A program made the position numbers and the translations under genes. Shown one piece after another: positions 5,717-46,240 of a stretch of DNA of 64,000 nucleotides. The stretch is taken from positions 62,001-126,000 of the forward strand of contig JARGOX010000011.1 in NCBI GenBank assembly GCA_029233925.1. Reading direction: 5' to 3'. This stretch comes from Rhizobiaceae bacterium (GTDB lineage: Bacteria > Pseudomonadota > Alphaproteobacteria > Rhizobiales > Rhizobiaceae). Positions within the stretch are counted from its first letter, which is position 1. Each line of letters starts with the position of its first letter. Under the pieces are notes generated by a model. It was not told the DNA's origin and ran no database searches. It was given only the letters and a program-made list of their open reading frames with translations.

Positions 5717-6802
5717 ATGTCACTATTCCCATCACCGCATCACGCAATCAGCAAAACCGCCATCACAATGGCCCTTTTGACAAGCCTGCTGACGGCTGCC
5801 GCCCATGCGGACATCACCTTCAAGGATCACCAGGGCGTGGAGATCAAATTGGATTCGCCACCTGAAAAAGTGGTGACCATCGTGCGTTCAGGCCCGATCC
5901 TTTACCGCGCCGTGGACGGAACAGCGGACCATATCAGTGCCGTGAACAAGAGTTTCTTCACCCGCGATTACATCTCCGGCCGCTACGGAGAAATCCTGCC
6001 GGAACTGGGCAATCTGGCAGCAACCGCCGCGCGCGAAGGCTTCGTCCCCAATGTTGAAGCCCTCTTGGAAATCAATCCAGATGTGATCATTCAGTGGGCA
6101 ACGGAGCCGCAAAACATCGAGCCTCTCGAACGGGTCGGCCTGACGGTTGTCGGTTGGAATTGCTGCACCGAAGCCGACCGCCGCGACTACCTGACGATCA
6201 GCGGAAAGTTGAGCGGCAAAACGCAACAGGCCGAGAAAATCCTGGCAGCGCAGGATGCCTCGAATGCGGTGCTGCGTGAACGTTTCAGCACTTTTGACAG
6301 CGCCGATACCGTCAGCCTGTTGCAGGTCGACCAGTTGAACGACCAGATCCGGGTCATCGCCAATGCTTCCCTGGATTTCAGCCTGAGCGGCGTCAATACG
6401 CCAGCGGCGGACGACAGCAATGTCTGGTGGAAAACCGTAGACCTTGAGCAGCTCTATGTCTGGAATCCGCAGATGATCCTGATACCACCCTACGCCAGAG
6501 ACCTGACGCCGGAGACATTCTACAGCAATCCGCTTCTCGCCAGCCTCGATGCCGTTGAAAACAGGCGTGTCTACAAGATACCTGCCTTTGCCGGGTCACC
6601 CGACGGGCCGGAAATCTATCTTGTCTCCTCATGGATTGCCGCTCTGGCACACGGCGCGGATGCAGCACCGGATTTTCGGGCCAATGTCCGCCAGGTCTAC
6701 AAGACGATTTATGACATCGAACTGGCCGATGCACAGATCGACCGCATTCTGTCGATGGAAGAAAACGCCGGGTCTCAAGCTTATGGCAGCCTGTTCGAAT
6801 AG
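5717..6802 (+). CDS. ABC transporter substrate-binding protein (FecB/BtuF-like)
   Basis: This is a periplasmic binding protein of 361 residues. It has an N-terminal export signal whose hydrophobic core lies around residues 15-30 and ends near AAAHA. Class III (helical-backbone) features follow: PPEKVVTIVRSGP, NVEALLEINPDVII, and a long helix between the two lobes. Family members deliver ferric siderophores, haem, cobalamin or metal chelates to FecCD-type permeases. The ATG at 5717 has GGAG at 5707-5710. The frame also holds a TTG at 5705. A CC pair (GWNCCTE) is unusual. The gene heads a four-gene unit with the permease ten bases downstream. The ligand cannot be told from the sequence. Confidence 0.85.
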   Translation: MSLFPSPHHAISKTAITMALLTSLLTAAAHADITFKDHQGVEIKLDSPPEKVVTIVRSGPILYRAVDGTADHISAVNKSFFTRDYISGRYGEILPELGNLAATAAREGFVPNVEALLEINPDVIIQWATEPQNIEPLERVGLTVVGWNCCTEADRRDYLTISGKLSGKTQQAEKILAAQDASNAVLRERFSTFDSADTVSLLQVDQLNDQIRVIANASLDFSLSGVNTPAADDSNVWWKTVDLEQLYVWNPQMILIPPYARDLTPETFYSNPLLASLDAVENRRVYKIPAFAGSPDGPEIYLVSSWIAALAHGADAAPDFRANVRQVYKTIYDIELADAQIDRILSMEENAGSQAYGSLFE

Positions 6803-6811
6803 GGGCTGCAG

Positions 6812-7858
6812 GTGTCCGACACAACAAAGAAGGCGCCTCTGGCGCGTCGCGCCCTCTTTCCGCTTCTGCTGGGTCTGTTGCTGCTCACCATACTCTATTC
6901 GGTGACCATCGGGCGCTATGACCTGCAAGTGCGGGATGTGGCGCTGATCCTTTGGGACAACATATCGCCAAGTCAGGCACCAAGCTGGACAAAACTCGAA
7001 GAGACAGTGGTCGAACTGGTGCGTTTGCCGCGCGTTCTCGCCGCTGTATTGATCGGCTTTGGCCTTGCCGTTTCGGGCGGTGCATTGCAGGGCCTGTTCC
7101 GCAATCCCCTTGTTGATCCCGGCATAATCGGGGTCACTGCCGGTGCCGGCTTTGGCGGCACCCTGGCAATCCTGCTCGGCATACACGGATACATGCTTTT
7201 GGCCATCGCCTTCTGCTTTGGCATAGGCAGCGTTGTGCTGGTCAAATTCCTGGCAAGTGTGCGTGGCCGGACCTCCATTTTGACATTGGTTCTTGCCGGT
7301 GTTGTCATCTCGGCCTTCTTCTCCGCAGCCATTTCCATTGCCAAACTACTGGCCGATCCGTTTCAAAAACTCCCCGCCATCACCTATTGGCTGATGGGCA
7401 GCATTGCATCGACGCATTATGGCGACGTTCTTCTGTTGGCCATCGCTGTCATTCCGGCCACCATTCTGATTTTCCTCTTGCGCTTTCAGATCAACATCCT
7501 GTCGCTGGGCGAGGAAAAGGCCCGTGCACTGGGCACACCCGTTGTCCTGGTTCAATGGCTCATTTTGATCGCAACAGCGATGATTTCCGCTGGCATTGTG
7601 GCCATTTCCGGCATTATCGGCTGGGTCGGACTGGTCATGCCGCATGTGGCGCGGGCATTCGTCGGCGCAGACCACAGCCGGATGCTGCCGGTCGCCGGCA
7701 TAATCGGCGCCATCTATCTCTTGCTGGTCGACAATCTGGCCCGCACGGTCACCACCGCAGAAATTCCGCTTGGCATCATCACCGCGCTGATCGGCGTGCC
7801 CGTATTCGCCATCATCCTTCGGCGCATGCATTCAAAAGGCGGCTGGAGCAATGATTGA
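6812..7858 (+). CDS. FecCD family ABC transporter permease
   Basis: This 348-residue inner-membrane protein has about nine to ten transmembrane helices. It shows the FecCD signatures RLPRVLAAVLIGFGLAVSGGALQGLFRNPLVDPGIIGVTAGAGFG and the coupling region with GEEKARALG, followed by ISGIIGWVGLVMPHVAR. It should form the homodimeric channel for the substrate delivered by the upstream binding protein. The start is a GTG with AGGGG six bases before it. Its last eight bases overlap the ATPase gene. No TonB-dependent receptor is encoded next to it. Confidence 0.92.
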   Translation: MSDTTKKAPLARRALFPLLLGLLLLTILYSVTIGRYDLQVRDVALILWDNISPSQAPSWTKLEETVVELVRLPRVLAAVLIGFGLAVSGGALQGLFRNPLVDPGIIGVTAGAGFGGTLAILLGIHGYMLLAIAFCFGIGSVVLVKFLASVRGRTSILTLVLAGVVISAFFSAAISIAKLLADPFQKLPAITYWLMGSIASTHYGDVLLLAIAVIPATILIFLLRFQINILSLGEEKARALGTPVVLVQWLILIATAMISAGIVAISGIIGWVGLVMPHVARAFVGADHSRMLPVAGIIGAIYLLLVDNLARTVTTAEIPLGIITALIGVPVFAIILRRMHSKGGWSND

Positions 7859-32520: not shown

Positions 32521-33309
32521 TCAACTGTCTTCATCAGAAGTCGCTTCCACTCTGAGCAGAAGATCTGCCAGTTTAAACCGTCCTGCGTCCTTGAAGGCGT
32601 TGACGAGGAAGGCCTTGAATTCCAGGCTGAATGGCATGGTCATCCAAATTCGCGATCTTTCGAAGGCATCCAGATGTTGCCCGTGCCGCAGGAGAAGACT
32701 GACCAGAACCGCCCGTTCCCTTTCTCCATCACCCTTGTAAACGGCATCGAACCTTTCCAGAACGTCCTGTGCCTTGTCGACCTCTCCCCGCGCCGCATAA
32801 AGCAGACCCAATCTGCCAAGATCAGCCGGTTTCACGTCCGTTTGGTTCTCAATTTTTGTGAGAAGTGCAAACTCCCGCTCAAAATCACCATTGTATCGCA
32901 AATAGGCGAGGACCTGGCTGGCAGCGCTGCCATTCGCAGCCAGGTCGGGACGCAGTTCCAGAATAGCGACATATTTGTCCATCTCCTGATAGGTGAGATA
33001 GTGACTTGCCAGAACCTCCTGGATTCTGACAACGTTCGAATGCAGCCGCGCCAATTCCTCTATGATGCGCCGGGTGCCCTCAATGTCTCCTGCATGCGTG
33101 CGCTGGTCATAGATATTCAACATCAGATCCGGATCCACAACACCATTGGCATACAACGCCTCAGCCTTCGTCCGCGCCACATCGAATTTGCCATCATTGT
33201 ACAGGCTGACAACGTGATCAACCGGTCCGGGAACCAAAGCCCAACCCGCAGACAGCGCTACAATGGCGAGCAGCAGGATTGCAAAATCACTCAATCCAGG
33301 TTTGCGCAT
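32521..33309 (-). CDS. Membrane-anchored TPR-like protein of the Pel-like locus
   Basis: This 262-residue protein has one N-terminal transmembrane helix (residues about 9-28) and an all-helical remainder. Its repeated AL..NG..D/ARGEVDKAQDVL spacing is characteristic of tetratricopeptide-like repeats. Its start overlaps the end of the deacetylase gene by 23 bases, so the two are one operon. In canonical Pel systems, PelB (periplasmic TPRs) and PelE (membrane plus TPR) act as scaffolds for PelA and the synthase. This protein could play either role, but I cannot assign it by sequence. It ends in an acidic tail (TSDEDS). Confidence 0.65.
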   Translation of the reverse strand: MRKPGLSDFAILLLAIVALSAGWALVPGPVDHVVSLYNDGKFDVARTKAEALYANGVVDPDLMLNIYDQRTHAGDIEGTRRIIEELARLHSNVVRIQEVLASHYLTYQEMDKYVAILELRPDLAANGSAASQVLAYLRYNGDFEREFALLTKIENQTDVKPADLGRLGLLYAARGEVDKAQDVLERFDAVYKGDGERERAVLVSLLLRHGQHLDAFERSRIWMTMPFSLEFKAFLVNAFKDAGRFKLADLLLRVEATSDEDS

Positions 33310-35614
33310 CGGAGCTCCCCCTACATTTGAATTGAAACTGCACGCTTTGCGAACCGAGGTCTGGCAGAGTGACCCTCAGTTTATGCTCCTCACTGATTAT
33401 GTTTTCTGTCCAGATGCCGGTTTCCTGGCCTTGCGCAACAATCTGGAATGTTCCGCTTTGCGGTACCATCCAGATCATTTCTCCAGCACCAAACCCTTGT
33501 GAATCAAAGGACCATTTACAGTCGCCTCGCTGGAGATTTGAAATGCTCCGGTTACTCTCGACCAGATAGGCGCTGCGCCGCAGATTTCCCCGTTTTTTGG
33601 TACGAAAAAGGCTGATTCGGGCCTCAGGAACAGCGCCGTCCAAAGCAACGTAAAGCGAAGTATGGAACCTTGTGTAGCCAAGCACCCCGTCGCTGTCACC
33701 CATATCAACTGAGAGTTCATCTGCATCATCAAAGCGAACCGTCTGCAACGCGCCGCGGTTTGACACGCTCCACTGCAATGAGCCGGTTTGTGTGATGTCC
33801 GCGTCAAAGAAACTATCGGCAATACGGGCGTAGTGCGAGGCGCGTATCGCGATGAACTCGCCTTCCCCTCCATAGTCCAGCAATTGCTCGATCGCCGTCA
33901 GGCTGGCCACCTTCTCGGCGCTGTAAATATGGTAGTAAAGATTGAATGGTTTCAACCGCCGGGGCGCGCCTGTTCGCTCCACCGTCTCGAGAACGAGAAT
34001 CTGGCCGTGAAAGGGGCCCGTCCACCTGTTCGTATAGGCATATTCATTGCTGTTGGCAGCGTAGATCTGACGTTCTGATCCCACCGGACGTGCAATCGGC
34101 GCGACATAGGCATGCGAGGGGAAAAGGCGGTCAAACCGGCTGTCTCCACCGTTGATATTTTCGACCGGCACCTGCCGGGTCATCCGCACGGCATCAGCGA
34201 AGGGTTCGGCATCACCGGACCATTGATAGAGCGCAGCTTTCTTGCCGAGTGGTGCAAGGGATTCCGCAACAACAAGAGAGTCACGTATCTCATGACGCAG
34301 ACTGAACGGCTCTTTGAGATAGGTCCGTGGCAGGGTTGCATCCCCTGACACCTGCCGAATGACGGGTGTGAAATAGGCTTCAAGCCCCAGTCCGTCGACA
34401 ACCATATTGCCTATCTTCTGATAGGGTTTGGACGAGGCCTGATCCTGATAGGAAAGCAACGCACTTTGTTCGGCCACACGATCATATTTTTCGTAGTATT
34501 GCCAATTGTAGGGATGCGTATATCCATGCGATGCCACCTCGACCTGTGGCAGGCTGTACAATTGCCTGGCCACCTCCCGTGATTGGGCGTTGCCACCAAG
34601 TTCCGTATCGACATCACCGGCAACAAGTCCAACAGTGACCGGAATACCTGGTCGCGGGGCGATGATGCGGTCAAGGGCGACACGCGCAGCTATGAGATTT
34701 TCGCCGTTAGCGCCTTTGACATCCGAAATATTGTTCCAGCCGTCTCCATCAATGTGGCTGAAGAAAATTCGTTTGCCTGAAAGTGTCGCCACATCGGGTA
34801 TCGGTCTCAGACCATCAGAGAAAGAAGCCTCGAAAAAGGCAAATGGATTGACCAGCCACTTGACCCTTTGAATGTCCCGCTCTTCAAACAGAGCAAAACC
34901 ACTTGGCACAAAACCGCCATGTGGCCCGGTCGTTACAATGGCGCTGCCCATACGGGCGTCCGGTTCTCCGGACGGTGCAATCATGAGATGCGCCGTCACG
35001 TCTGGATCAATGATCCTGATATTGGGGTAACCGGGAAGTATCGGGTCAAGTCGGTGCTCAAAGGCGTACATCGCCCGATCGACGAAACGAACCTTGCTGT
35101 CAAAGGTCATCGAGGTCATGCCCTCGACCTGCAGACCGAACAGCGCCAACAATTGGTCATGCTGGGTTCCGGTCCGGCGGCTCCGTTCGATACCGGGATG
35201 CTCCATTATGGCAAAGCGGGCACCGGATTCGACCATGCCGACAACCCAATCGAGATAGGTGTTTGCATCAGCGACCGGCTCGTCGAACCAGGTTATCACC
35301 CGGCTTTGCTCGGGCACGTCGGAGAGCAACGGAAGTCCCGCCGATATATCGACATATTCAAGATGATAGCCAAGATGATTCAGCACCATCTCCGCGTAAC
35401 GGTGAATGCGCGTACGGTCGGCCTTACCTTCCTGTGTGCTGTCAAATAGCGCCAGAACGGTGCGCGGTACCTTTGTTTTGGCAGCATAGGCATGATCTGC
35501 CACCGAAATCATCAGGCCCAATTGAACAGCGACAATCAAGAGGAACACCGACCTCAAAATCCTGGCTATCGCATTCCGCTTTCCGGGAAAAAACCTCGTC
35601 CGCATTTGCATCAT
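33287..35614 (-). CDS. PelA-like polysaccharide deacetylase (lacks hydrolase domain)
   Basis: This exported 775-residue protein has a long signal segment (hydrophobic core about residues 20-37, AYA near 44). Residues about 50-270 form a Rossmann-like domain (TVLALFDST...HRYAEMVLNHLGYHLEYVD). A NodB-like deacetylase domain follows, with metal/catalytic motifs SHIDGDG at 286-292 and ASHGYTHP at 361-368. The C-terminal third is beta-rich and may bind carbohydrate. This order matches the middle and C-terminal domains of PelA, which partly deacetylates the GalNAc-rich Pel polymer in the periplasm. The N-terminal glycoside-hydrolase domain of PelA is absent. A separate protein of that family is encoded at 44296-45276. 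It is the first gene of a two-gene operon. Confidence 0.75.
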   Translation of the reverse strand: MMQMRTRFFPGKRNAIARILRSVFLLIVAVQLGLMISVADHAYAAKTKVPRTVLALFDSTQEGKADRTRIHRYAEMVLNHLGYHLEYVDISAGLPLLSDVPEQSRVITWFDEPVADANTYLDWVVGMVESGARFAIMEHPGIERSRRTGTQHDQLLALFGLQVEGMTSMTFDSKVRFVDRAMYAFEHRLDPILPGYPNIRIIDPDVTAHLMIAPSGEPDARMGSAIVTTGPHGGFVPSGFALFEERDIQRVKWLVNPFAFFEASFSDGLRPIPDVATLSGKRIFFSHIDGDGWNNISDVKGANGENLIAARVALDRIIAPRPGIPVTVGLVAGDVDTELGGNAQSREVARQLYSLPQVEVASHGYTHPYNWQYYEKYDRVAEQSALLSYQDQASSKPYQKIGNMVVDGLGLEAYFTPVIRQVSGDATLPRTYLKEPFSLRHEIRDSLVVAESLAPLGKKAALYQWSGDAEPFADAVRMTRQVPVENINGGDSRFDRLFPSHAYVAPIARPVGSERQIYAANSNEYAYTNRWTGPFHGQILVLETVERTGAPRRLKPFNLYYHIYSAEKVASLTAIEQLLDYGGEGEFIAIRASHYARIADSFFDADITQTGSLQWSVSNRGALQTVRFDDADELSVDMGDSDGVLGYTRFHTSLYVALDGAVPEARISLFRTKKRGNLRRSAYLVESNRSISNLQRGDCKWSFDSQGFGAGEMIWMVPQSGTFQIVAQGQETGIWTENIISEEHKLRVTLPDLGSQSVQFQFKCRGSSDAQTWIE

Positions 35615-36082
35615 CTGTCAAACTCAATTCAATTTCAATTGGGAAGGAAGACCTGTGAATTTTATGAAATTGAAACTCCGCAAAACATTGCTGCACCTTA
35701 TGTCGGAACTGTAAATCCGTAAACCACACTGACACCATCACATTGCCAGCGTCTTCCCCAGTCACAAAAATCGACACATTGCAGGAAGGAGGGCTGTTTT
35801 GGCAAAATTGCAAAAGAGGATCATGCGAGATGGAATTCTCAAGCCGAGCGCCTCGACGGAAAATCTATCAATCATGTTGTCTGTCCGCAGGCGCGTCTTA
35901 TCCCGATGCGGCGGCAAAGCGGGTGCCTTTTCCAGAGATTCTGAATGCCTGAGTCCTAGCAATATTATTGCACTGAAATCACATTTATTTCCGTTTGCCT
36001 TATCCTCATGGGCGGCTCATTTTTTCACAAATGACCTTCGGCAACACCTGTGCCGTGTTGCAGACGTATGAGGAAATTCACG
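35615..36082. other. Divergent promoter region between PelA-like and ctaD genes
   Basis: No convincing gene is found in these 470 bases, which should carry both divergent promoters. A perfect 13-base palindrome (GCAATATTATTGC, 35959-35971) lies about 110 bases before ctaD. I see no FNR-type box. The segment near 35640-35720 is AT-rich and contains repeated AATTTCAATT-like words. Confidence 0.4.
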
Positions 36083-37708
36083 ATGTCCGACAAGGCCACC
36101 GCTCACGACAGATCACAGGATGTCACCACTTCAAAGGATAACCACAAGTCACAATTTATTGCCCGTTGGTTACTCTCAACCAACCATAAGGATATCGGAA
36201 CGCTCTATTTGTTGTTCTCAATATTAGCCGGACTTTTCGGGACTGTGCTTTCGATCTTGATCCGAATGGAGCTTCAGCAACCCGGCATGCAGATATTCAA
36301 CGATCCTGGCACCTACAATGTTGTTGTTAGCGCGCATGGGCTGGTGATGATTTTTTTCGTTCTCATGCCCGCTTTGATCGGAGGCTTTGGCAACTGGTTC
36401 GTGCCGATCCTGATTGGCGCACCCGACATGGCATTTCCGCGCCTCAACAATTTGTCATTGTGGCTTCTCATCGTGTCATTCTTGCTCTTCATCATCTCCA
36501 TGTTTGCGGAAGGAGCGCCCGGGACATTGGGGCATGGAGGAGGGTGGACACTGTACCCGCCCTATTCCACCTCCGGGCAGCCCGGACCGACCGTTGACCT
36601 TGTCATCCTGTCCATTCATCTGTCGGGCGCATCCTCGATCCTGGGCGCAATCAACTTCATCACCACCATTTTCAACATGCGCGCACCGGGCATGAATCTG
36701 CATAAAATGCCGCTGTTTGCCTGGGCCATGTTGGTCACCGCCTTCATGCTGTTGCTGGCATTGCCGGTGCTTGCCGGTGCGGTCACCATGCTTCTGACGG
36801 ATCGCAATTTTGACACCACCTTTTTCGCTCCCAATGGCGGCGGTGATCCGATCCTCTATCAGCACCTGTTCTGGTTCTTCGGACATCCGGAAGTCTACAT
36901 CATGATTCTGCCAGCTTTCGGCATTGTCAGCCACATCCTGTCGACCTTCTCACGCAAGCCGATCTTCCGTTATCTTGGCATGGTTTATGCGATGGTTGCG
37001 ATCGGTCTGATAGGCTTTATCGTCTGGGCGCATCATATGTTCGCCGTGGGCCTGTCGATCGATTCCCAGCGTTATTTCATGTTCGCCTCAATGGTCATCG
37101 CGGTGCCGACCGGCGTAAAGGTGTTTTCCTGGCTGGCAACCATGTGGGGCGGTTCCATCTCTTTTCGCACACCAATGATATGGGCGATCGGCTTTATTTT
37201 TCTGTTCACCATCGGCGGCGTAACGGGCGTCCAGGTCGCCAGTGCCGGTCTCGACCGTTCAATGCATGACACCTACTATGTGGTCGCACATTTCCACTAC
37301 GTGTTATCGCTTGGCTCGGCCTTCGCGATTTTCGCTGCCTGGTATTACTGGTTTCCAAAAATGTCTGGCTATCTCTACAATTCCGTCCTCGCCAAGACCC
37401 ATTTCTGGCTGATGTTTATCGGCGTCAATATTGTCTTTTTTCCGCAGCATTTTCTCGGCATTGCAGGGATGCCACGCCGTTACGCCGACTACCCCGATGC
37501 CTTTGCCGGGTGGAATTTCGTGTCTTCGATTGGCTCCTACATTTCGGCGCTTGGCATAATCGTCTTTCTCGTCACCGTGGCAGAAGCATTCATGATGAGA
37601 CGGCCAGCAGAAGACAATCCCTGGGGCGACGGCGCAACCACCCTGGAATGGACCCTGTCGTCGCCACCACCATACCATCAATTTCAATCACTGCCCCGGA
37701 TCGCGTAA
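36083..37708 (+). CDS. ctaD: Cytochrome c oxidase subunit I (aa3 type), solitary copy
   Basis: This 541-residue haem-copper oxidase subunit I has twelve transmembrane helices. Visible are the D-channel aspartate in [13 protein letters not shown], the E of [17 protein letters not shown] with the CuB-ligand histidine, the HH pair in WAHHMFAVG, and [18 protein letters not shown] with the haem-ligand histidines. It should couple oxygen reduction to proton pumping in the inner membrane. The ATG at 36083 has GAGGAAA upstream; earlier in-frame starts lie before this site. No subunits II, III or assembly factors accompany it, unlike the normal cta operon. It is followed 44 bases later by a Tim44-like gene. 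It is probably a second copy, because the main oxidase operon is not in this window. Confidence 0.93.
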
Positions 37709-37752
37709 CACCGGAGCCGTCACTCTTGCCGAAATTCGATAGGAGTATCCAA

Positions 37753-38364
37753 ATGACCGAGACCACAGAAAACGGAACCAGCCTTTGGCCCATCATAACA
37801 TTCGCGATTTACTGGGCCTATCTGGTCGTTTCATATCGACAGCACAAGAGGACCGGGGTGAAGACATTTTTCAATTTCGACCTCTTTTCGCATGGGAATG
37901 GAACAACCCATGGACACAGCTCCAATTGGTTGGCTGATCTGACAAACAGGCAAAACGGCCTTGATGAGGAGAATTTTCTGGCCGGTGCAGTGAAGATGTA
38001 TGAGTACATTCTGGTAAACTATGCATCAGGAAACCTGGAGGCGCTCGTCGGGTTTCTTGACCCTGATGTTTTTGCGGTGTTCTCAGAACATATCGAAGAT
38101 AGGAAGACAAAGGGCGAAAGACTGTCTCTCGATATTGTCACTCTCGCAAACGCAAAAATTGTCGCAAGAGACTTCGATAAAACGCATTGCAAATACACGG
38201 TTCGATTTGAAGCAGACATTCTGGTCTCCACGCAGAATGTTGGTTCGGACAATTGCCCACAAGGTTCGCAGAAAATGTTGAACGCAATCGATACCTGGAC
38301 TTTTCGAAAACGGAAAAATGCCATGAACAAAAACTGGGTGCTGATTGCGACAGAAACAGACTGA
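37753..38364 (+). CDS. Tim44-like domain protein
   Basis: This 203-residue protein has an N-terminal membrane helix (about residues 10-28, LWPIITFAIYWAYLVVSY) and a Tim44-like C-terminal domain. FLAGAVKMYEYILVNYASGNLEALVGFLDPDVFAVFSEHIEDRKTKGE, followed by strands and a closing WVLIATETD, has the family layout. Alphaproteobacterial Tim44 homologues (TimA) are inner-membrane proteins of unclear role, distantly related to the mitochondrial import motor anchor. The ATG has AGGAG at 37741-37745. It directly follows the lone oxidase subunit, and the pairing suggests a role in its assembly or stability. That is inference. Confidence 0.75.
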   Translation: MTETTENGTSLWPIITFAIYWAYLVVSYRQHKRTGVKTFFNFDLFSHGNGTTHGHSSNWLADLTNRQNGLDEENFLAGAVKMYEYILVNYASGNLEALVGFLDPDVFAVFSEHIEDRKTKGERLSLDIVTLANAKIVARDFDKTHCKYTVRFEADILVSTQNVGSDNCPQGSQKMLNAIDTWTFRKRKNAMNKNWVLIATETD

Positions 38365-38495
38365 CCATCGTCAGAGGACTGACTTGCATATACTTTGAAA
38401 TGAAATCGCAGAAGCTGCCGACTGCGCTCCGAAGACAATACTGAGCGGGGTTCTTGCTGTTGAAGAAATCATGCGAAAGAAACCGTCTGGCATGA

Positions 38496-39373
38496 CTAGA
38501 GCGCCCCGGACGACGGTTCCAATTTGTCACCTGCAATGGCGTGAAGTCCGGCCAGCGCTGCGTCTGATACGCTCCTATCGGCAATAATGGCCGATTGCAC
38601 CGCATAAACAGGATAGGAAAACATCGGCATTTCAGGGACAAGATGGAGCCTGCCAGCTGCGACATAGGGCTGTATCGAGCTCAATCTGAAATAGCCCGCC
38701 CCGCCGGCTGAAAGAATGTAATTGAGCGCAATAGGACCAAGGTCCATATGAATATCCGGCGTAATATCCGGAAAATTCATTTCATGCTGAAGCGCGAATT
38801 CCGGTCCCCAATCCATGTAAATATAGTCCGGACCATCGGGAAACCGAGTTTCGGGGTCTGTCGTCACGAACACCAGTTCTTCTTCCATGAGCAGATCGAT
38901 TTTCAACCCCGGAAGATGTTGTGGCGCATACATGATTGCCAGATCAATCTCCCCCGATGCGACCTGCTTGATCAGATCTTTCGGCACATCGACACGCACC
39001 CGAAGGGCTATGTCGGTCAAGGACTCGCGAATCCATTGAACCCAGCTTAGCAGCAGCGGCTGCGCAAGACTTACCTCACTGCCTACGGTCAGCACTGCAC
39101 GGCGCCCCGGCGCCCCGGCGGCACAGCAACCTGGTGCAGGGTGCGTTGCCATAACTGGATAAACATCGGGGCGTGTCGAAGAAACTGCTGACCCGCTGGC
39201 GTAAGATTTGCTCCACCCTTGTTCCGAACAAAAAGGTCGCGTCCCAACAATTGTTCAAGATTGCGAATGCGCGCGCTCACGGTTGTCTGCGCGACATTCA
39301 GACGTTCGGATGCGCGGATGAAGCTTCCGGTCGACACGATTGCAATGAAGGTCCTGGCGAGTTCGATATTCAT
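38496..39373 (-). pseudogene. LysR family regulator, frameshifted by an 8-bp tandem duplication
   Basis: The N-terminal winged helix-turn-helix reads from ATG 39373 (MNIELARTFIAIVSTGSFIRASERLNVAQTTVSARIRNLEQLLG), but the frame ends early at a TGA near 39089. The LysR substrate-binding domain (TVGSEVSLAQPLLLSWVQWI to the stop at 38496) continues in another frame. The break coincides with two tandem copies of GGCGCCCC at 39101-39116. Removing one copy restores an uninterrupted chain, ...VAVPPGRRAVLTVGSE, of about 290 residues, the usual LysR length. It lies divergently upstream of the pelD-like gene and could have controlled it. Either a pseudogene or a phase-variable gene. Confidence 0.85.
39101..39116. 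repeat. Tandem 8-bp repeat (GGCGCCCC x2) inside a LysR gene
   Basis: GGCGCCCC occurs twice in tandem (39101-39108 and 39109-39116), followed by a partial third GGCG. The unit is not a multiple of three, so gain or loss of a copy by replication slippage switches the LysR reading frame. Confidence 0.85.
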
Positions 39374-39492
39374 CGGTGGCATTGCATAAATATCGCACTC
39401 AAATGTCAATCAATTTCGTTTCCAACGGGGTGTGTTGACCTGCCGATCAGCAAGTCTCAATCCCTCAAAAAAGCAGGAATACACACAAGGCG

Positions 39493-39534
39493 AGCGTTTC
39501 AGGATCAAATGGTTCCATTTGATTCTGAAACGCT
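39493..39534. promoter_or_regulatory. 42-bp near-perfect palindrome before the Pel synthase operon
   Basis: The arms 39493-39512 and 39515-39534 are 20-base reverse complements with one mismatch around a central TT. The right arm contains TTTGATTCTGAAACGCT. It lies between the divergent LysR gene and the pelD-like gene, about 100 bases before the chosen pelD start. It could be an operator, a cruciform or a mobile palindromic repeat. No second copy was noticed in the window. Confidence 0.55.
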
Positions 39535-39637
39535 TTACTCTGTGATTTTACAGCGTTTGTTTTTGGCCGCAGAATTGCTAAAAACTCCGATACCATTCAT
39601 CACACCTTGGCTGGAAACAAGGCAACAAAGATGTCCA

Positions 39638-41341
39638 ATGGTTGCAAGATTGCAAGAACCTGAAGAGACGCTCAAGGTGAGCGAAAATGAGACCGACAAT
39701 CGTCATCGCATGGCCGTCGCCCTGATCGAATTGGCAACTTTGCTGGCCATTCTGTGCGGCGCGCAATATCTGTTGGCGGGCAATCTGGACTTCTCCGATT
39801 ATTCGATCAATCCCCTTTGGATACCGATCGTCCTCATGGCCTCGCAATATGGGCTGGCCTTTGGGGTTGCTTCGGTGATGGCTGTTGTTACAGTCCATCT
39901 ATCGGGTGGGAATCTGTGGCCGCCTGACGCCGGAACACCCCCCTTCGGTGCCCTGCAGCAACTGTCTGTTCCTGCTCTCTGGCTGATTACAGCAATCGTT
40001 CTGGGCCTTTTACGCGACCGCACTACGGCCCGCATTCGGGAACTCTCCAGGGCATCAGCCGAAGACCGGGCGCGCTACACGGCTATCTCGAATTTCGCAA
40101 CCGGGCTCAAGGCTGACAATGCAACATTGCAGATGCAAGTTGCGACAAGCCGTGATTATACCATTTCATCCGTCGTCAAGGCCTTTGCTGATCTGCGGTC
40201 TGCAGATCAGAACAACCTGGAAACCATGGTCGAGCGATGCGTCTATATGATTACCGGGTCCGGATCCTATTCAATATACCTGTTGAAGGATGAAAGGCTC
40301 GTCCGGGTCTGCGGAAAGGGCAGAGCGTCGCCCTTTCTGGCTGATGGACATGCATCACCTGCCGTGAGCCTTTTGTTTCAACAGGAAAATGATGCTGTTA
40401 CCGCCCTGCAGCAGCAGACATTGGGAAACGATACGGTGCAATCCGGTCTGGTCACCGCGCTGCGATCACCGACCGGGCAAGTGATGGGCATCCTGATGAT
40501 CGACAGCGATACACAGCCGGTCATTGGCAAGATACAGAACCTGGACATCCGGCTTCTGGCCGATGAACTGTCAGCAATTGCTCCAAAACTTGTCAGATTG
40601 ATGCAGTCAGGATTGGACCGGCTCCAAAACGAAGCAAGTGCTCAGCGACATAGCTTTCCGATACTTCGGCAGGCCGCCACGCCAACCGCAGTGTCAAGCA
40701 CGCCAGAAGAAAAACCACCCGTACCATTGCAGATTCGGATGTCTGACTTTATTCTGGGTATAGCGGTTTTGTATGTGGAGGTTCTGGCCTGCTACACGTT
40801 CCTATATTCAAACCGCAATGTCGCCCTTTTCCTTATCATCCACACAATCGTGGTTTGCGCATTATATTGGCTCGCGAATGCCCGTTATCAGTTCATAGGT
40901 CATCTGACGACGACACTGTTGACCATCCTGGTTGCCTTTCTTGGGCCCGTGGGTGCTGCCGCTTCACTGATTTTCTGTACGCTTTTGCGTGTCCGTCTGA
41001 AGATGACGGCAACCCCTTCCAGCTGGTATGAAACCCTGTCTGGTCGGCATGCCGCTGATCCGGCCCATGCACTCTATGAACGCATCAATGCTGGGCGTTT
41101 GCACCCGGACGGCCAGTCCCCATCCCCCAGCATGACCGACATCATGGAAACCGGTGACCGCAGTCAGCGGCAGATTGCTCTGGGGCTCATGCTTCGTAAC
41201 TTCCACGTGGAATTTTTGCCCTTGTTGAAAAGGGCGCTTGAAGACAGGGATCCGCTGGTGCGGGCACAGGCTGCAGTTATTATCAATACGGTTTTGCCAA
41301 CCGGGCGCCGCCCGTCAAACGAGGAGGGCAAGGAGAGGTGA
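39638..41341 (+). CDS. PelD-like GAF protein with second membrane module (PelD-PelE-like)
   Basis: This is a 567-residue inner-membrane protein. Residues about 28-125 form about four transmembrane helices as in PelD. A coiled linker leads to a GAF domain (about 165-320). Instead of the degenerate GGDEF domain that binds c-di-GMP in Pseudomonas PelD, a proline-rich linker leads to three more helices (about 371-450). A short helical C-terminus follows (GDRSQRQIALGLMLRNFHVEFLPLLKRAL), recalling the membrane-plus-repeat layout of PelE. The start is uncertain. The frame is open far upstream, ATG 39509 lies within the palindrome, and ATG 39638, GTG 39677 or ATG 39710 precede the first helix. The stop overlaps pelF by four bases. 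The PelD assignment rests on topology and on PelF and PelG next door. Confidence 0.7.
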   Translation: MVARLQEPEETLKVSENETDNRHRMAVALIELATLLAILCGAQYLLAGNLDFSDYSINPLWIPIVLMASQYGLAFGVASVMAVVTVHLSGGNLWPPDAGTPPFGALQQLSVPALWLITAIVLGLLRDRTTARIRELSRASAEDRARYTAISNFATGLKADNATLQMQVATSRDYTISSVVKAFADLRSADQNNLETMVERCVYMITGSGSYSIYLLKDERLVRVCGKGRASPFLADGHASPAVSLLFQQENDAVTALQQQTLGNDTVQSGLVTALRSPTGQVMGILMIDSDTQPVIGKIQNLDIRLLADELSAIAPKLVRLMQSGLDRLQNEASAQRHSFPILRQAATPTAVSSTPEEKPPVPLQIRMSDFILGIAVLYVEVLACYTFLYSNRNVALFLIIHTIVVCALYWLANARYQFIGHLTTTLLTILVAFLGPVGAAASLIFCTLLRVRLKMTATPSSWYETLSGRHAADPAHALYERINAGRLHPDGQSPSPSMTDIMETGDRSQRQIALGLMLRNFHVEFLPLLKRALEDRDPLVRAQAAVIINTVLPTGRRPSNEEGKER

Positions 41342-42927
41342 AGGCATCGCAAAGCGGCAGATTGCAAAGACAAAGCTCGAGCATGGGGTACGAAGACCAG
41401 ACGGACGAGGACTATGAAGCTGATGTCTGCCTCATTCTTGAAGGAAGCTATCCCTATGTGTTTGGCGGTGTCTCAGGGTGGACCCAATCACTCATCAAGA
41501 TGCAGCAACACAGGACGTTTTCGGTGGTCTCTATCCTGCCGGATAATAAAAATCTGCAATCAAGATATCCACCCCCCTCCAATCTGGTTGCCCTTCACCA
41601 CCTGTTTCTCGATCGACAGAAGAAAAAAGGCAAAGCCGTCCCGATGGAAACCGCCAAGGCCCTGTCGGAAGCGCTGCTGGCAACCATTCAGAACGGCCGG
41701 GTGTGCGACCTGCGAGCCCTTGTCGAATTGCTGGAAACCGCCCATGCGGAACATACGCTTGATGACGTCATGAATTCTCCCATGGGCTGGCAAATGGTTC
41801 GCAGCATGTACCGCGCATCCATGCCCCAATGCTCATTCCTGCAATATTTCTGGGCATGGAGGTCCCTGGTCGGCGCACTTCTGGCGGTCCTTCAATTTCC
41901 TCTGCCAAAAGCGCGCATCTATCACAGCCTTTCAACGGGATACGCCGGAATATTGGCGGCCAGGGCTGCTATCGAACTAAACCGCCCCTGCATGGTCACG
42001 GAGCATGGCATCTATACCAACGAACGGCGCATCGAAATCTTGACGGCGGATTGGATCGCCGATAGCGTCGACAACGGTTTCTCAACATCGACGCAAAAGC
42101 GGGACGTGCGGGATATGTGGATCGGCACGTTCGAGAACTTGGCGCGAATCTGCTACGGTGCCAGTGACCAGATCATTGCACTCACGCAAGTCAGCCAGCG
42201 AGAGCAACTGGCGAGCGGCGCAGACCCTGCCCGCTGCATGATCATCTCCAATGGCGTTGATGTGGAACGCTTTTCTCGACCCGCAGAATCTGTCGGTGAA
42301 CCAACCGAAATGATCGCTCTGATCGGTCGTGTGGTCCCCATCAAGGACGTATTGACCTTCATTCAGGCTGTTGATCTTTTGCGCTTTGAATTCCCCCACC
42401 TGCAAGCACATATAGTCGGTCCGTTTGACGAGGATCCCGACTACTACGCGACCTGTCGCGCCCTTTTGGATGAACTTGGTCTTGATGCCCATGTCTGTTT
42501 CACCGGCGTGGTCAAGATCGAGGAAAAATTGCAATCCTGCAGCCTTGTCGTCCTGACCAGTATAAGCGAAGGTCAGCCATTGGTCATGATGGAGGCAGGT
42601 GCGGCAGGCATACCCTGCGTCGCAACAGATGTCGGAGGATGTCGGGAAATTCTGTTTGGCACGGATACGGAAAATCCCAATCTGGGGTCGGGCGGATTGA
42701 TCACCGGCCTTGTTTCACCGAACGAAACAGCCGACGCTATCGCCACTTTATTACGCGATCCGGTTTTGCGAAAACGTCTGGGATCCAATCTCCAAAACCG
42801 CATTCGTCAGCATTACAACGCGCGCATGGTCGATACCGCATACACGCAATTGTATGATCGGTTTGCATCCAATGATCGAAACAGTTCAACATTCCCCGAT
42901 CATGAGGTCGAACCATCGCCGGCATAG
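41338..42927 (+). CDS. pelF: PelF-like GT4 glycosyltransferase
   Basis: This 529-residue cytoplasmic glycosyltransferase has the family-GT4 (GT-B) fold. The N-terminus DVCLILEGSYPYVFGGVSGWTQSLI is distinctive for PelF. The C-terminal nucleotide-sugar domain has IALIGRVVPIKDVLTFIQAV and the E-x7-E region EGQPLVMMEAGAAGIPCVATDVGGCREIL. PelF polymerises the Pel exopolysaccharide from UDP-sugars and works with PelG. The start is a GTG overlapping the pelD stop, with a GAGGAGG region upstream. Its 3' end overlaps the N-terminal coding part of pelG. Confidence 0.9.
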   Translation: MKASQSGRLQRQSSSMGYEDQTDEDYEADVCLILEGSYPYVFGGVSGWTQSLIKMQQHRTFSVVSILPDNKNLQSRYPPPSNLVALHHLFLDRQKKKGKAVPMETAKALSEALLATIQNGRVCDLRALVELLETAHAEHTLDDVMNSPMGWQMVRSMYRASMPQCSFLQYFWAWRSLVGALLAVLQFPLPKARIYHSLSTGYAGILAARAAIELNRPCMVTEHGIYTNERRIEILTADWIADSVDNGFSTSTQKRDVRDMWIGTFENLARICYGASDQIIALTQVSQREQLASGADPARCMIISNGVDVERFSRPAESVGEPTEMIALIGRVVPIKDVLTFIQAVDLLRFEFPHLQAHIVGPFDEDPDYYATCRALLDELGLDAHVCFTGVVKIEEKLQSCSLVVLTSISEGQPLVMMEAGAAGIPCVATDVGGCREILFGTDTENPNLGSGGLITGLVSPNETADAIATLLRDPVLRKRLGSNLQNRIRQHYNARMVDTAYTQLYDRFASNDRNSSTFPDHEVEPSPA

Positions 42928-44315
42928 GTTTCATACTGCAAAAGCTCGGCCGCGCGGAAGACCTGATCGCCCAGCTTCAATCTATCGGTTACGGCGGCAT
43001 TGTCGCAGCCGGACCATGGTTGCTCACGATTGCAGGGCTGGGCCTGACGAGCCTGGTGACAGCAGGAAGAACCGACCTTGAACTTGTCGAGACATTTCGC
43101 ACCATCATTGTCTATGGTTTTGCTTTCGGCCTCATAGCAGCCATTCCCTGCACCATGGTGGCAACGCGGCAATTGTCTGATGCCCTTTGGAAAAGAAAAC
43201 CCGATCAGGCGCCCATCCACCTGCTCGGCAGTCTGATTGCCAGCGCAGGCCTATCGGCATTCGTTTTCGTGCTCTTGTATTTCGTGCTCTTCCCGCTACC
43301 CGCTGATCTGGCCCTGGCAGGTGTAGTCAGCGGCATTCTTATTGCTTTGCTCTGGACAGCAGCCACTTTCTCCAGCGCAACACATGACTATATGGCCGTC
43401 GCCCTGGCATTTTTGGTCGGCACATTGTGCAGTCTGGTAGGCGCAGTCTTCATGGCGTTCAAATATGAAACGGCCAGTGACACCGTCTGGGGCTATGCAT
43501 TCGGTCTGGCGCTGTCACTGACCCTTTTGCTGGTGCGGATTGCAGCAACATTTCCCTTCGAAACCGACAGGAAATCCAGACCTCTGGCAAGCCTCGTGTC
43601 CGGTTTCAGGCTTTTCCCCCTCCTGGCCTTGGGCGGCCTTTTGAATGCGCTTGGCATATGGGTCGACAAATGGATCGTCTGGTCTTCGCCCTATGGGGAG
43701 CGCACGGCAGCGGGATTGCCCCATTCAGCAATCTACGACAATGCCATATTTCTCGCCTATCTGATGATCGTGCCGCCGCTGGCTATTTTCGTGGTGCATC
43801 TTGAAACCCGGTTTTCGCGCAATTTCGGCAGGTTCACAGCAATTATTCTGCAACATGGGACGCTGGAAGACATCGAACAGGCCGGCATAAAGACAAAGCG
43901 AGATACACTCGGAACACTCCGCAAGACCATTCTCTTTCAGGCCGCCATGTGTTGCGCCCTCATAATTCTGGTTCCACAGTTCGCCGAATTTCTGGGGCTG
44001 CAGCAAAGACAGGTGCCCATCATTCAGATTGGCTTGCTTGGCACCATTTTCCATTTCATTCTGATCGCCTCCGGATCGATCCTGCTATATTTGGATCTTC
44101 AGCAACGCTATGTCGGAATCCAACTCCTCTACCTGATGACGCTGGGCGGCTTCACCACATTGAGTCTGCTTGGCGATGGGCAATATCTTGGCATGGGTTA
44201 TCTGGTGGCGACCGTGGTCAGCAGCAGCGTCGCCTACTTGATGCTTCTGGATGCACTGGACCGCATTGATTACCACTTTTTCATGTCGGCAATTTTCAGG
44301 AACGGCAAAACCTGA
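42915..44315 (+). CDS. pelG: PelG-like polysaccharide transporter; start codon unusual
   Basis: This inner-membrane protein of about 466 residues and twelve helices belongs to the PelG branch of the MOP flippase superfamily and exports polymer made by PelF. Conserved PelG sequence begins IAGIGFILQKLGRAEDLIAQLQSIGYGGIVAAGPWLLTIAG. This N-terminus is encoded from 42915, but between the upstream stop (TGA, 42903) and the TTG at 43020 the frame has no ATG, GTG or TTG. I place the start at the ATC at 42915, eight bases after a GAGG, where the family's initiator methionine should lie. A one-base indel near 42912-42915, joining the frame to ATG 42902, is the alternative. Starting at 43020 would remove the first conserved segment. 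It converges with the GH114-like gene, overlapping by 20 bases. Confidence 0.8.
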   Translation: MAGIGFILQKLGRAEDLIAQLQSIGYGGIVAAGPWLLTIAGLGLTSLVTAGRTDLELVETFRTIIVYGFAFGLIAAIPCTMVATRQLSDALWKRKPDQAPIHLLGSLIASAGLSAFVFVLLYFVLFPLPADLALAGVVSGILIALLWTAATFSSATHDYMAVALAFLVGTLCSLVGAVFMAFKYETASDTVWGYAFGLALSLTLLLVRIAATFPFETDRKSRPLASLVSGFRLFPLLALGGLLNALGIWVDKWIVWSSPYGERTAAGLPHSAIYDNAIFLAYLMIVPPLAIFVVHLETRFSRNFGRFTAIILQHGTLEDIEQAGIKTKRDTLGTLRKTILFQAAMCCALIILVPQFAEFLGLQQRQVPIIQIGLLGTIFHFILIASGSILLYLDLQQRYVGIQLLYLMTLGGFTTLSLLGDGQYLGMGYLVATVVSSSVAYLMLLDALDRIDYHFFMSAIFRNGKT

Positions 44316-45276
44316 CACCACCCAACACCGTTGCAGCGTTGGCCGGTGCCGGCACGCTTTGGGATATTTCCCGCAGAAGGCGATCACCAAAACTGGCAAG
44401 AATACCGTGCTGCGATAACCTTCTGGTGACCTCGTCGCGCTGTTCGCCAGGTGGCAGATATTCGATTGCCAGCACGGGAATGTCATAATCCTTTGCGGAG
44501 GCCAGGTTGGCCAAAGCAGTCTCTATGGACTTTTCACTATTGCGCTCGCCATCGTGAGCAACACCATAGAAAAGGTCTTCCTTAACAACCGCATCCACAG
44601 AGTTCCGAAACCGTTCGTTCTGCAGCAGGCGTTCGCCGTTCTGCGCAATGATCAGAAATTCGGGGTTTCTTGTTCTGGCATGTTGCGCGACGCGTTCGAC
44701 CAGATTGATCATTTCCATGCGGGCATCTTTGTTGCTCTGCGACCAATATTCAAAGGCATCGACGATATCGAGAAACGCGCCATCAAATCCGGCATCCAGT
44801 ATCCTGTCGAGGTAGGCACCTGGCTCAGCGTAAATGATTCCCTGCCAGTCCTCCTCCCAGAAACGCACATGATAGTTGCCTGGCCACCGGCGGTTTTCCT
44901 CACCTATCCAGGACGGCGACGCAAGGTTCCAGATGTCCCGCCAGTAATATCTGTAATCCTCGGCCTCGCCAATACTCAGATAAGCCAAGACCAGCCGGTC
45001 GCGGCCATCAGCCCTTTTCTTCATCCGCAAAACGGTCTCCCGTTCAAGCGCCTGCTTTTGGCTGCCGTCCTTGGAATAATCGATGATGATCAAATCATCA
45101 TCAGATTGCACAATTGCATCCGGCTCCATCTGTTGCAATTGGATGCTCCACCTGTCGATATCGTATTTTTCAGGCGCCAGACAACGATCCTTTGCCCAAC
45201 TGTCACCGAGGCAAACAACACTCAGTACCAGTGCGGTCAATAGAGGACATATCTGATATTTCACGCTTGTTCTCAT
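44296..45276 (-). CDS. Secreted GH114/PelA-hydrolase-like glycosidase
   Basis: This exported 326-residue protein has a signal peptide with cleavage likely after DSWA. The TIM-barrel belongs to the TM1410/GH114 type related to endo-alpha-1,4-polygalactosaminidase and to the N-terminal hydrolase of PelA. Key parts are DDLIIIDYSKDG, VLAYLSIGEAEDYRYYW with the probable catalytic glutamate, and AGFDGAFLDIVDAFEYW. The start is ATG 45276; a TTG 21 bases upstream is less likely. The gene faces pelG, overlapping its end by 20 bases. It likely trims the polymer and so supplies the activity missing from the deacetylase at 33287. Confidence 0.82.
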   Translation of the reverse strand: MRTSVKYQICPLLTALVLSVVCLGDSWAKDRCLAPEKYDIDRWSIQLQQMEPDAIVQSDDDLIIIDYSKDGSQKQALERETVLRMKKRADGRDRLVLAYLSIGEAEDYRYYWRDIWNLASPSWIGEENRRWPGNYHVRFWEEDWQGIIYAEPGAYLDRILDAGFDGAFLDIVDAFEYWSQSNKDARMEMINLVERVAQHARTRNPEFLIIAQNGERLLQNERFRNSVDAVVKEDLFYGVAHDGERNSEKSIETALANLASAKDYDIPVLAIEYLPPGEQRDEVTRRLSQHGILASFGDRLLREISQSVPAPANAATVLGGVRFCRS

Positions 45277-45490
45277 GCTTGCTTTCACCGAACGCAATGG
45301 CCCGGGTTTAGCCTTTGACAGGGTAGAAATCTGTTAGTCGGCATCGTGTATCAGGCCCTGGTGATTGACCTTCTTAAAAGTTGAAGCTAATTTTGAGACT
45401 ACGAAGTCAGAATCATGGCGGCAACGTCTCATTTTGAAATTCCGGCAATATTTCCTCTGTAACCACACAATTTCAAGTGAGGGTTGATCG

Positions 45491-46240
45491 ATGCATTGCA
45501 CTCTGCTCAAGAATGTTTTTTTTGCTGCCACGCTTGTCTTTGTGGGACAACCAATTTTTGCGGATGCAGCCGATATCAATTTTGGTACGGCGGCGCCCGC
45601 CAACAACATGGTCGTCTATTGGGGCGCCGACGCCTATAAAAGCGGCTACGGCCTTGATACTGGCTTTGCCTATGCACTCAATGGCGACATATTGAGCAGC
45701 GGCTGGGTCCTGTCCGGCAATATGGGTTATGCCTATTCTTTCGACAGGGCCTCCTCACCCCGTTCCAGCACGAAAGCGCTTTCCGGGTCTGCGCTCATTG
45801 GATACCAATGGCAAACAAGCGACTATTATATCGCGACTTATCTGGGCGCTGACTTTGTCAACAACGATGAAAATCCGGTCGGAACGAGCGATGGCTTTGA
45901 AGCAGGCGTGATGGGTGTTTTGGGCTTTGAAACAAAAAGGCAAAATGCCCCCTATGTGGAAGTGAATGCGGCCTATTCGACAGCAAATGACCGGATGTAT
46001 GGTCGCCTGCGCGGTGGCTATAAAACAAATCAACTGAAATTCGGCGCAGAGTTCACGGCCTATGACGAAAAGGACTCCGACGAAGCTTTCCGTTATGGTG
46101 CCTTCGTGGGCGATATCCCTGTCGGCAGAATGAGCATGACCCTTTCCGGTGGCTATCATGACGACCAGAGCACCAGCGCCAACAGCGGATATTATGGGCA
46201 GATCGAGTTTTCTGTTCCGCTCAGCGCCCCTTCCCTTTGA
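45491..46240 (+). CDS. BcsS-like outer-membrane protein
   Basis: This 249-residue exported protein has a signal peptide of about 26 residues (ending IFADA). Alternating beta strands run to a C-terminal segment (YYGQIEFSVPLS), consistent with a small outer-membrane barrel. The motif VYWGADAYKSGYGLDTGFAYALNGDILSSGWVL strongly resembles the BcsS family, which accompanies cellulose synthase genes in alphaproteobacteria. No bcsA/bcsB is here. Next to PelFG and the glycosidase it might serve export or retention of the Pel-like polymer, since no PelB or PelC is found. GAGGG precedes the ATG. A strong hairpin follows its stop. Confidence 0.78.
   Translation: MHCTLLKNVFFAATLVFVGQPIFADAADINFGTAAPANNMVVYWGADAYKSGYGLDTGFAYALNGDILSSGWVLSGNMGYAYSFDRASSPRSSTKALSGSALIGYQWQTSDYYIATYLGADFVNNDENPVGTSDGFEAGVMGVLGFETKRQNAPYVEVNAAYSTANDRMYGRLRGGYKTNQLKFGAEFTAYDEKDSDEAFRYGAFVGDIPVGRMSMTLSGGYHDDQSTSANSGYYGQIEFSVPLSAPSL

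Follow-up and report, generated by a model that had tools for sequence, protein, structure and literature searches.

Pel is a model both for synthase-dependent polysaccharide export and for the control of biofilms by cyclic dimeric guanosine monophosphate (c-di-GMP). The pelABCDEFG system of Pseudomonas aeruginosa comprises the glycosyltransferase PelF, the inner-membrane exporter PelG, PelD with transmembrane (TM), GAF and c-di-GMP-binding GGDEF parts, PelE, a PelA deacetylase with a fused GH166 domain, PelB with N-terminal TPR repeats and an outer-membrane barrel, and the PelC lipoprotein. Gram-positive pelDEADAFG loci (Bacillus cereus, streptococci) have a PelA without the hydrolase, a separate hydrolase and neither PelB nor PelC, and streptococcal PelD is without GGDEF (PMC7112168). 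Fission of pelB and its rearrangement are described in other bacteria (PMC7112194), and the N-terminus of PelB may be an inner-membrane helix (PMC12141448). Outer-membrane polysaccharide export (OPX; Wza-family) proteins are given as the exit of Wzx/Wzy and ABC pathways, and a barrel as that of synthase-dependent pathways (PMC9601211), which has 16 to 18 strands (PMC9601211, PMC9603273). Here we describe a pel-type locus in a stretch of 64,000 nucleotides from a Rhizobiaceae bacterium (assembly GCA_029233925.1, contig JARGOX010000011.1, positions 62,001 to 126,000; "the window"; all coordinates are those of this stretch).

The locus probably encodes Pel-type exopolysaccharide production, in an alphaproteobacterial lineage that is without the PelB barrel and without the GGDEF domain of PelD. 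It resembles the Pseudomonas aeruginosa system in PelF, PelG, the PelA deacetylase motifs, the TM and GAF parts of PelD, the core of PelE and a TPR protein like the N-terminus of PelB, and differs from it in that no PelB barrel, PelC or GGDEF was detected, PelD and PelE are fused, and a separate GH191-like protein with a BcsS-family protein nearby is found rather than a fused GH166 domain. A deacetylase-only PelA, a separate hydrolase and the lack of PelB and PelC are shared with the Gram-positive loci, unlike which the window has a PelD-PelE fusion, a TPR protein and a GH191-like enzyme, in a cell with an outer membrane to cross.

Core pel genes of the window

The gene set and coordinates proposed in a first-pass annotation of the sequence were confirmed by using the list of open reading frames (ORFs) and profile scans of the window. 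PelF (41338..42927, plus strand; NF038011, 7.4e-122; PF11997, 4.2e-73), with DUF3492 and the motifs GRVVPIKD and EX7E, and PelG (42915..44315, plus strand; PF16933, 9.2e-95, profile positions 4-452 covered), with a non-standard start, are as clear as that annotation had stated. It had also described PelA as a deacetylase lacking the hydrolase domain, and this holds: the 775-aa protein (33287..35614, minus strand; signal peptide by eye) aligns to solved PelA (9cgy) over residues 255-812 only (E 8e-54), with HIDGDG and SHxxxHP kept, and because the alignment begins at PelA residue 255 the hydrolase domain is missing. Its relatives in Hyphomicrobium and Pseudovibrio match at E 1e-160 or better. 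A profile for the fused hydrolase found none in the window and scored no comparison locus as fused, Paraburkholderia L049 included, so that this column has low power.

The separate hydrolase of the first-pass annotation is indeed a gene of its own, encoding a secreted protein (44296..45297, minus strand; TIGR01370, 3.5e-68; PF03537, 1.5e-21), but its strict GH114 label was rejected: among solved sequences TM1410 entries are best (E ~1e-48), PelA itself scores 5.5e-4, and an Asp and a Glu align at the putative active-site positions given in PMC12054363, so we call it GH191-like. That paper assigns the TM1410 structures to the new family GH191, one member of which cleaved Pel; a Thermotoga member, as far as seen, neither bound nor cleaved fungal galactosaminogalactan.

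PelD-PelE fusion and lack of GGDEF

A PelD-like protein with GAF, no GGDEF and a second, PelE-like membrane module had been noted. This content stands and is recast as a single PelD-PelE fusion chain of 554 aa (39677..41341, plus strand; GTG start at 39677 assigned by homology), in which residues 13-280 correspond to PelD (TM and GAF-like), followed by a linker, and residues 359-540 to PelE (TM and HEAT-like). A predicted model has low confidence (predicted local distance difference test, pLDDT, 58) and was used only for the order of its elements, namely helices, one alpha/beta domain and helices. Against solved sequences the PelD profile ranked PelD entries at the top, weakly (E 0.0054). No GGDEF profile match was found in the window, and with it the RxxD I-site of PelD is absent.

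Loci (numbered with L below) were compared by taking the best 80 PelF relatives in named genomes (of 579 among 586 matched stretches) together with 24 further loci, and were scored with profiles built in this analysis. All of these 104 loci except L044 had a PelF match, which makes 103; the window was added to give 104 rows, and 100 rows were counted after removal of the duplicates L059, L069, L070 and L078. A contig scan with the fusion protein as query had found no relative, and a second scan hence used a PelF alignment. PelD was detected in 91 of the 100 rows, with GGDEF in 58, as TM and GAF only in 26 and in shorter form in 7; a threshold placed Pseudovibrio L064 among the last, yet a partial GAF region is present in it, and the nine rows without PelD include misses, the profile having failed on the annotated PelD of L049. 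The fusion occurs in the window only, among the 91 loci with a PelD match. The RxxD I-site is kept in 47 of the 58 GGDEF parts, and the absence of GGDEF therefore removes a real receptor site. The earlier proposal that c-di-GMP does not act through PelD is thus sustained as regards the missing domain, but this lack (33 of 91 loci) extends well beyond the lineage of the window.

A plasmid search with the locus DNA gave no match; with PelF it gave 547 records (identity at most 43.5% among the matches listed), and with the fusion protein three Azospirillum records, each matched in two pieces.

PelB, PelC and the TPR protein

The first-pass annotation had reported PelB and PelC as missing and had seen a TPR-like protein. 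The latter (262 aa; 32521..33309, minus strand; no barrel; hydrophobic N-terminal anchor by eye) is present and can now be placed as a relative of the PelB N-terminus. Among the compared loci its best phmmer matches are ORFs in the pelB position (L052, 2e-18; L054, 3e-17; L053, 1e-16), and it also matches the N-termini of full-size TPR/PelB proteins, e.g. in L097 and L036. By sequence likeness it would correspond to the membrane-anchored N-terminal scaffold of PelB.

Neither the PelB barrel nor PelC had a profile match in the window, these profiles being of limited power. Over the genome (6.1 Mb; a draft of 43 contigs, 99.38% complete) the PelB-type profile matched eight times at E <= 1, in every case within its TPR stretch (positions 130-236 of 521), and the PelC search gave nothing at E <= 1, a weak negative since it had no positive-control genome. 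PelF, PelG, PF03537 and BcsS had one match each. No second PF03537 protein, PelF or PelG, no PelB barrel and no PelC were thus found elsewhere in the genome; the search for a PelA deacetylase covered the window.

Some of the other loci also have an unusual PelB. In L126, L046 and the Azospirillum loci it is divided over two proteins, one carrying the TPR (712 to 1026 aa) and the other the barrel (523 to 595 aa), and in the alphaproteobacterial L071 and L092, where GGDEF is kept and neither a barrel match nor an OPX gene is found, the pelB place is taken by a 911-aa TPR protein and an unassigned 985-aa ORF, respectively.

Distribution and phylogeny

A barrel was scored in 67 of the 100 rows (including L049, counted because a profile seeded on it matched it, and it alone), an OPX gene in the locus in 11, both in none and neither in 22; 12 of these last cover less than 4.1 kb upstream of pelF and 10 more than 7 kb. 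In a tree of PelF and PelG the window groups with 14 other loci, none of which has a detected PelB barrel or PelD GGDEF; the 15 come from Pseudovibrio, Hyphomicrobium, Methylobacterium, Aureimonas, Rhodobacterales and the window. Support for the set is 99/97 in a careful tree of 38 rows (the 15 set rows, six Sphingomonas and 17 hand-picked from the other 67) and 94 (SH-like approximate likelihood-ratio test, SH-aLRT) in a quick tree of 88 rows; quick trees without Pseudovibrio, Sphingomonas or four Rhodobacterales gave 96, 100 and 97, respectively. L071, L086, L092 and L110, which have more than 7 kb upstream and no barrel match, were of unsure status and hence marked "na" manually ahead of tree building, and later fell outside the set; none has a detected barrel or OPX gene, L071, L092 and L110 carry GGDEF and L086 has no PelD match. 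What had been suggested as an alphaproteobacterial Pel variant is thereby borne out and widened to a set of 15 loci.

Next of kin to the set in the quick tree is Sphingomonas, with the barrel and without GGDEF, which suggests that GGDEF may have been lost before the barrel. A PelD without GGDEF beside a kept PelB barrel is seen in Sphingomonas L080, L084, L093, L101, L112, L116, L122 and L127. Strict motif patterns recovered the two PelA motifs together in 4 of the 15 set rows and the GH191 residue pair in 5.

Of the genomes searched, with that of the window counted each time, PelG was found in 1 of 8 in the genus, 1 of 101 in the family, 2 of 150 in the order (where only that of the window exceeded the cut-off) and 21 of 385 in the class.

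OPX genes in related loci

An OPX gene is present in 10 of the 15 loci (Methylobacterium, 3; Aureimonas, 2; the Hyphomicrobiaceae metagenome-assembled genome L066; Rhodobacterales, 4). These ten share the tree set and the lack of a detected barrel and GGDEF with the window; nine have the PelA deacetylase and seven a GH191-like match. Unlike the window they carry OPX in the locus, and none has the fusion. The remaining five (the window, Pseudovibrio L064 and the Hyphomicrobium-type L050, L052 and L053) have neither barrel nor OPX.

The OPX gene comes after pelG in L054, L055, L062, L066, L114 and L119, and in each of these except L114 it is followed by a GH191-like gene. In L047, L048, L120, L129 and L082 it lies before pelD; it is on the pelF strand in all 11 loci. 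The eleventh, Microvirga calopogonii L082 (OPX at 6178-7572), has no barrel, keeps GGDEF and lies in a different part of the tree, which suggests a second swap from barrel to OPX that was probably independent. The L066 protein has Poly_export and SLBB domains, and all four of the 11 scanned with NCBIfam (L066 included) show an export-family stretch and an HlyD-like stretch. We take ExoF of Sinorhizobium to be similar to this type. The locus on Cereibacter azotoformans plasmid p1 (L048, 1-16394) holds glmS, galE, two galactosaminidase-like genes and the OPX gene, and its PelD is a membrane part only (189 aa).

No OPX gene was found in the window locus. The genome has two Poly_export matches on other contigs, in frames of 205 and 314 aa, which were rejected as the pel-locus type (~450-540 aa); one of them could still serve.

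BcsS and the neighbouring genes

A BcsS-like barrel had been noted, and a different outer-membrane exit suggested. Its presence is upheld by profile (249 aa; 45491..46240, plus strand; PF17036, 2.8e-25, 89.7 bits against a cut-off of 24); it is a candidate outer-membrane barrel and a candidate member of the system, with a signal peptide by eye. As an exit it fared less well: 77 of the 199 genomes searched in the order have BcsS, PelG is in two of 150, and no other compared pel locus has BcsS, for which reason it was rejected as the general exit of the lineage. Outer-membrane barrels often end in F or Y; 11 of 13 aligned BcsS relatives do so, and the window protein does not. Its model alone (pLDDT 34) is too poor to use, and its profile matched no solved sequence at E <= 1. 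In 4 of 20 BcsS neighbourhoods compared, of the 77 genomes, an ORF with a cellulose-synthase-like motif stands beside BcsS, two of the four having been checked and both belonging to glycosyltransferase family 2 (GT2); several other neighbours are unrelated to sugars. The guanine-cytosine (GC) fractions of BcsS (0.523) and the GH191-like gene (0.525) are similar, though neither departs far from the values of the window (mean 0.557, standard deviation 0.027). A class III nucleotide cyclase gene (PF00211; 46598-47956, plus strand) adjoins bcsS and may be linked to control.

The deacetylase and TPR genes overlap by 23 bp on the minus strand, and the fusion, pelF and pelG genes overlap one another on the plus strand. 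Between these two divergent operons stand a cytochrome c oxidase subunit I gene (ctaD-like; TIGR02891, 1.7e-217) followed by a Tim44-domain gene (36050-38364, plus strand), and a LysR-type regulator gene whose coding sequence is divided between two frames at a GC-rich run (38496-39409, minus strand; a frameshift or sequence error). The locus, rightly described at first as dispersed, has this look because of the block, which may be an insertion. In Pseudovibrio sp. Alg231-02 (L064) the operons are adjacent, the divergent deacetylase and pelD ORFs starting 195 bp apart. That locus otherwise has the same layout, with deacetylase and TPR (272 aa) genes on the minus strand, pelD, pelE, pelF and pelG on the plus strand, the GH191-like gene on the minus strand and no detected barrel or OPX, and differs in its separate PelD and PelE and in lacking BcsS and the ctaD/lysR block. 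The GH191-like gene is tail to tail with pelG in the window, as it also is in L064 and in Hyphomicrobium L052 and L053, where there is no OPX.

Discussion

As far as the outer membrane the system probably operates in the manner of Pel, but it is, as tested here, without the GGDEF part of PelD, the PelB barrel, PelC or a fused hydrolase. Its product would be a polymer of galactosamine type. PelF would polymerise UDP-GalNAc in the cytoplasm, and PelG and the fused PelD-PelE would carry the chain through the inner membrane. The TPR protein with its membrane anchor and the secreted deacetylase would then receive the chain and partly deacetylate it, and the secreted GH191-like enzyme would trim or clear the polymer. 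Because the c-di-GMP-binding GGDEF is missing, the usual control of PelD by c-di-GMP would not operate; the GAF-like domain may respond to another signal or be no more than a scaffold. The outer membrane would be crossed without the PelB barrel and PelC ring. In most of the lineage the OPX protein of the locus probably takes part in this step. OPX proteins without a C-terminal amphipathic helix pair with a barrel (PMC9601211, PMC9603273), so that a separate barrel may be required in the OPX lineage as well. The composite EpsY/EpsX OPX/beta-barrel translocons of those papers offer a parallel, in that an OPX that does not itself span the membrane could require such a barrel, but the pathways given for them are of the Wzx/Wzy and ABC types and not that of a Pel-type synthase; the word "Pel" does not occur in either main text, save once in a reference list. 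For the window, an OPX encoded outside the locus and paired with a barrel may be the exit, BcsS being the less likely choice.

Several points weigh against a barrel-less Pel lineage. The PelB of the betaproteobacterial L049 escaped the iterated barrel profile, and a distant barrel could have done so too; L047 covers only 2.3 kb upstream of pelF and may yet have a barrel. The window and Pseudovibrio are long branches, and the branching order inside the set of 15 is not resolved. By eye, the C-termini of the linked OPX proteins have no evident long amphipathic or membrane-spanning helix, and these proteins may therefore not form the pore themselves. The locus is so rare that selection is not measurable with near relatives. 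The conserved N-terminus of PelG starts at an ATC (42915), with an ATA at 42924 that shares bases with the stop codon of pelF, and the first in-frame ATG, GTG or TTG comes only at 43020; output may therefore be low or the locus decaying, and the start may be a rare one, an error in the sequence or an indication of decay.

Decay, perhaps after horizontal transfer, would explain as steps of degeneration why barrel and GGDEF are missing, why the TPR protein is short, why PelD and PelE are fused and why pelG has an odd start, in keeping with the rarity of PelG in the genus and family, the unrelated genes between the operons and the broken lysR; we consider it unlikely, because the pel reading frames are all long and open with their catalytic motifs kept, and the lack of barrel and GGDEF is common to the whole set, loci with a linked OPX included. 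The window could instead belong to a standard Pel system with pelB, pelC and a full pelD elsewhere in the genome. The draft state of the assembly and the limited reach of the profiles leave some room for this, but the genome searches found only TPR-part matches and no PelC, and the nearest relatives likewise have no detected barrel or PelC in their loci, which makes it highly improbable. That the PelF/PelG pair makes another sugar polymer, possibly kept at the cell surface, we regard as doubtful: galE and glmS, which flank the pel genes in Cereibacter, were not noted beside the window genes, but a PelA-type deacetylase and a GH191-like enzyme, from a family with one member that cuts Pel (PMC12054363), stand in the locus.

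The remaining alternative concerns the exit itself. BcsS could be a small barrel recruited beside the pel genes to replace that of PelB, with the short TPR protein as scaffold. It is the only BcsS found in the genome and adjoins the GH191-like gene; six other genomes of the family were seen without BcsS and PelG occurs in one of 101, as if both had arrived together; the GC of the two genes is similar, if near the scatter of the window; and ORFs with a cellulose-synthase-like motif, two of them GT2 as checked, border BcsS in the four neighbourhoods above. Against this, the other compared pel loci have no BcsS, it is frequent in the order without Pel, the protein is short for a polysaccharide pore when known barrels have 16 to 18 strands (PMC9601211), its model is poor and no solved relative was found by sequence, and several of its neighbours have no relation to sugars. 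BcsS is thus a weakly supported candidate in the window, and this account is improbable too. A bolder version, to which we give slightly less credence, is that Pel was rewired more than once in Alphaproteobacteria to another translocon (OPX with a separate barrel) after PelD had lost control by c-di-GMP, with BcsS as the barrel partner in the window and PelD and PelE made one polypeptide; if true, it would give the BcsS family its first function.

Our preferred reading remains a Pel-type system of a lineage without the PelB barrel and the PelD GGDEF. Among the open-access papers listed, we found no report of OPX genes in pel loci, of a PelD-PelE fusion or of Gram-negative pel loci without a barrel. 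A lineage without a detected barrel and with an OPX gene in the locus breaks the division between OPX exit and barrel exit of PMC9601211. The steps of PelD reduction seen here (TM, GAF and GGDEF; TM and GAF; TM only; PelD-PelE fusion) hint at the part that synthesis needs, and the locus makes two questions testable in environmental bacteria, namely what PelD does besides binding c-di-GMP and what BcsS does.

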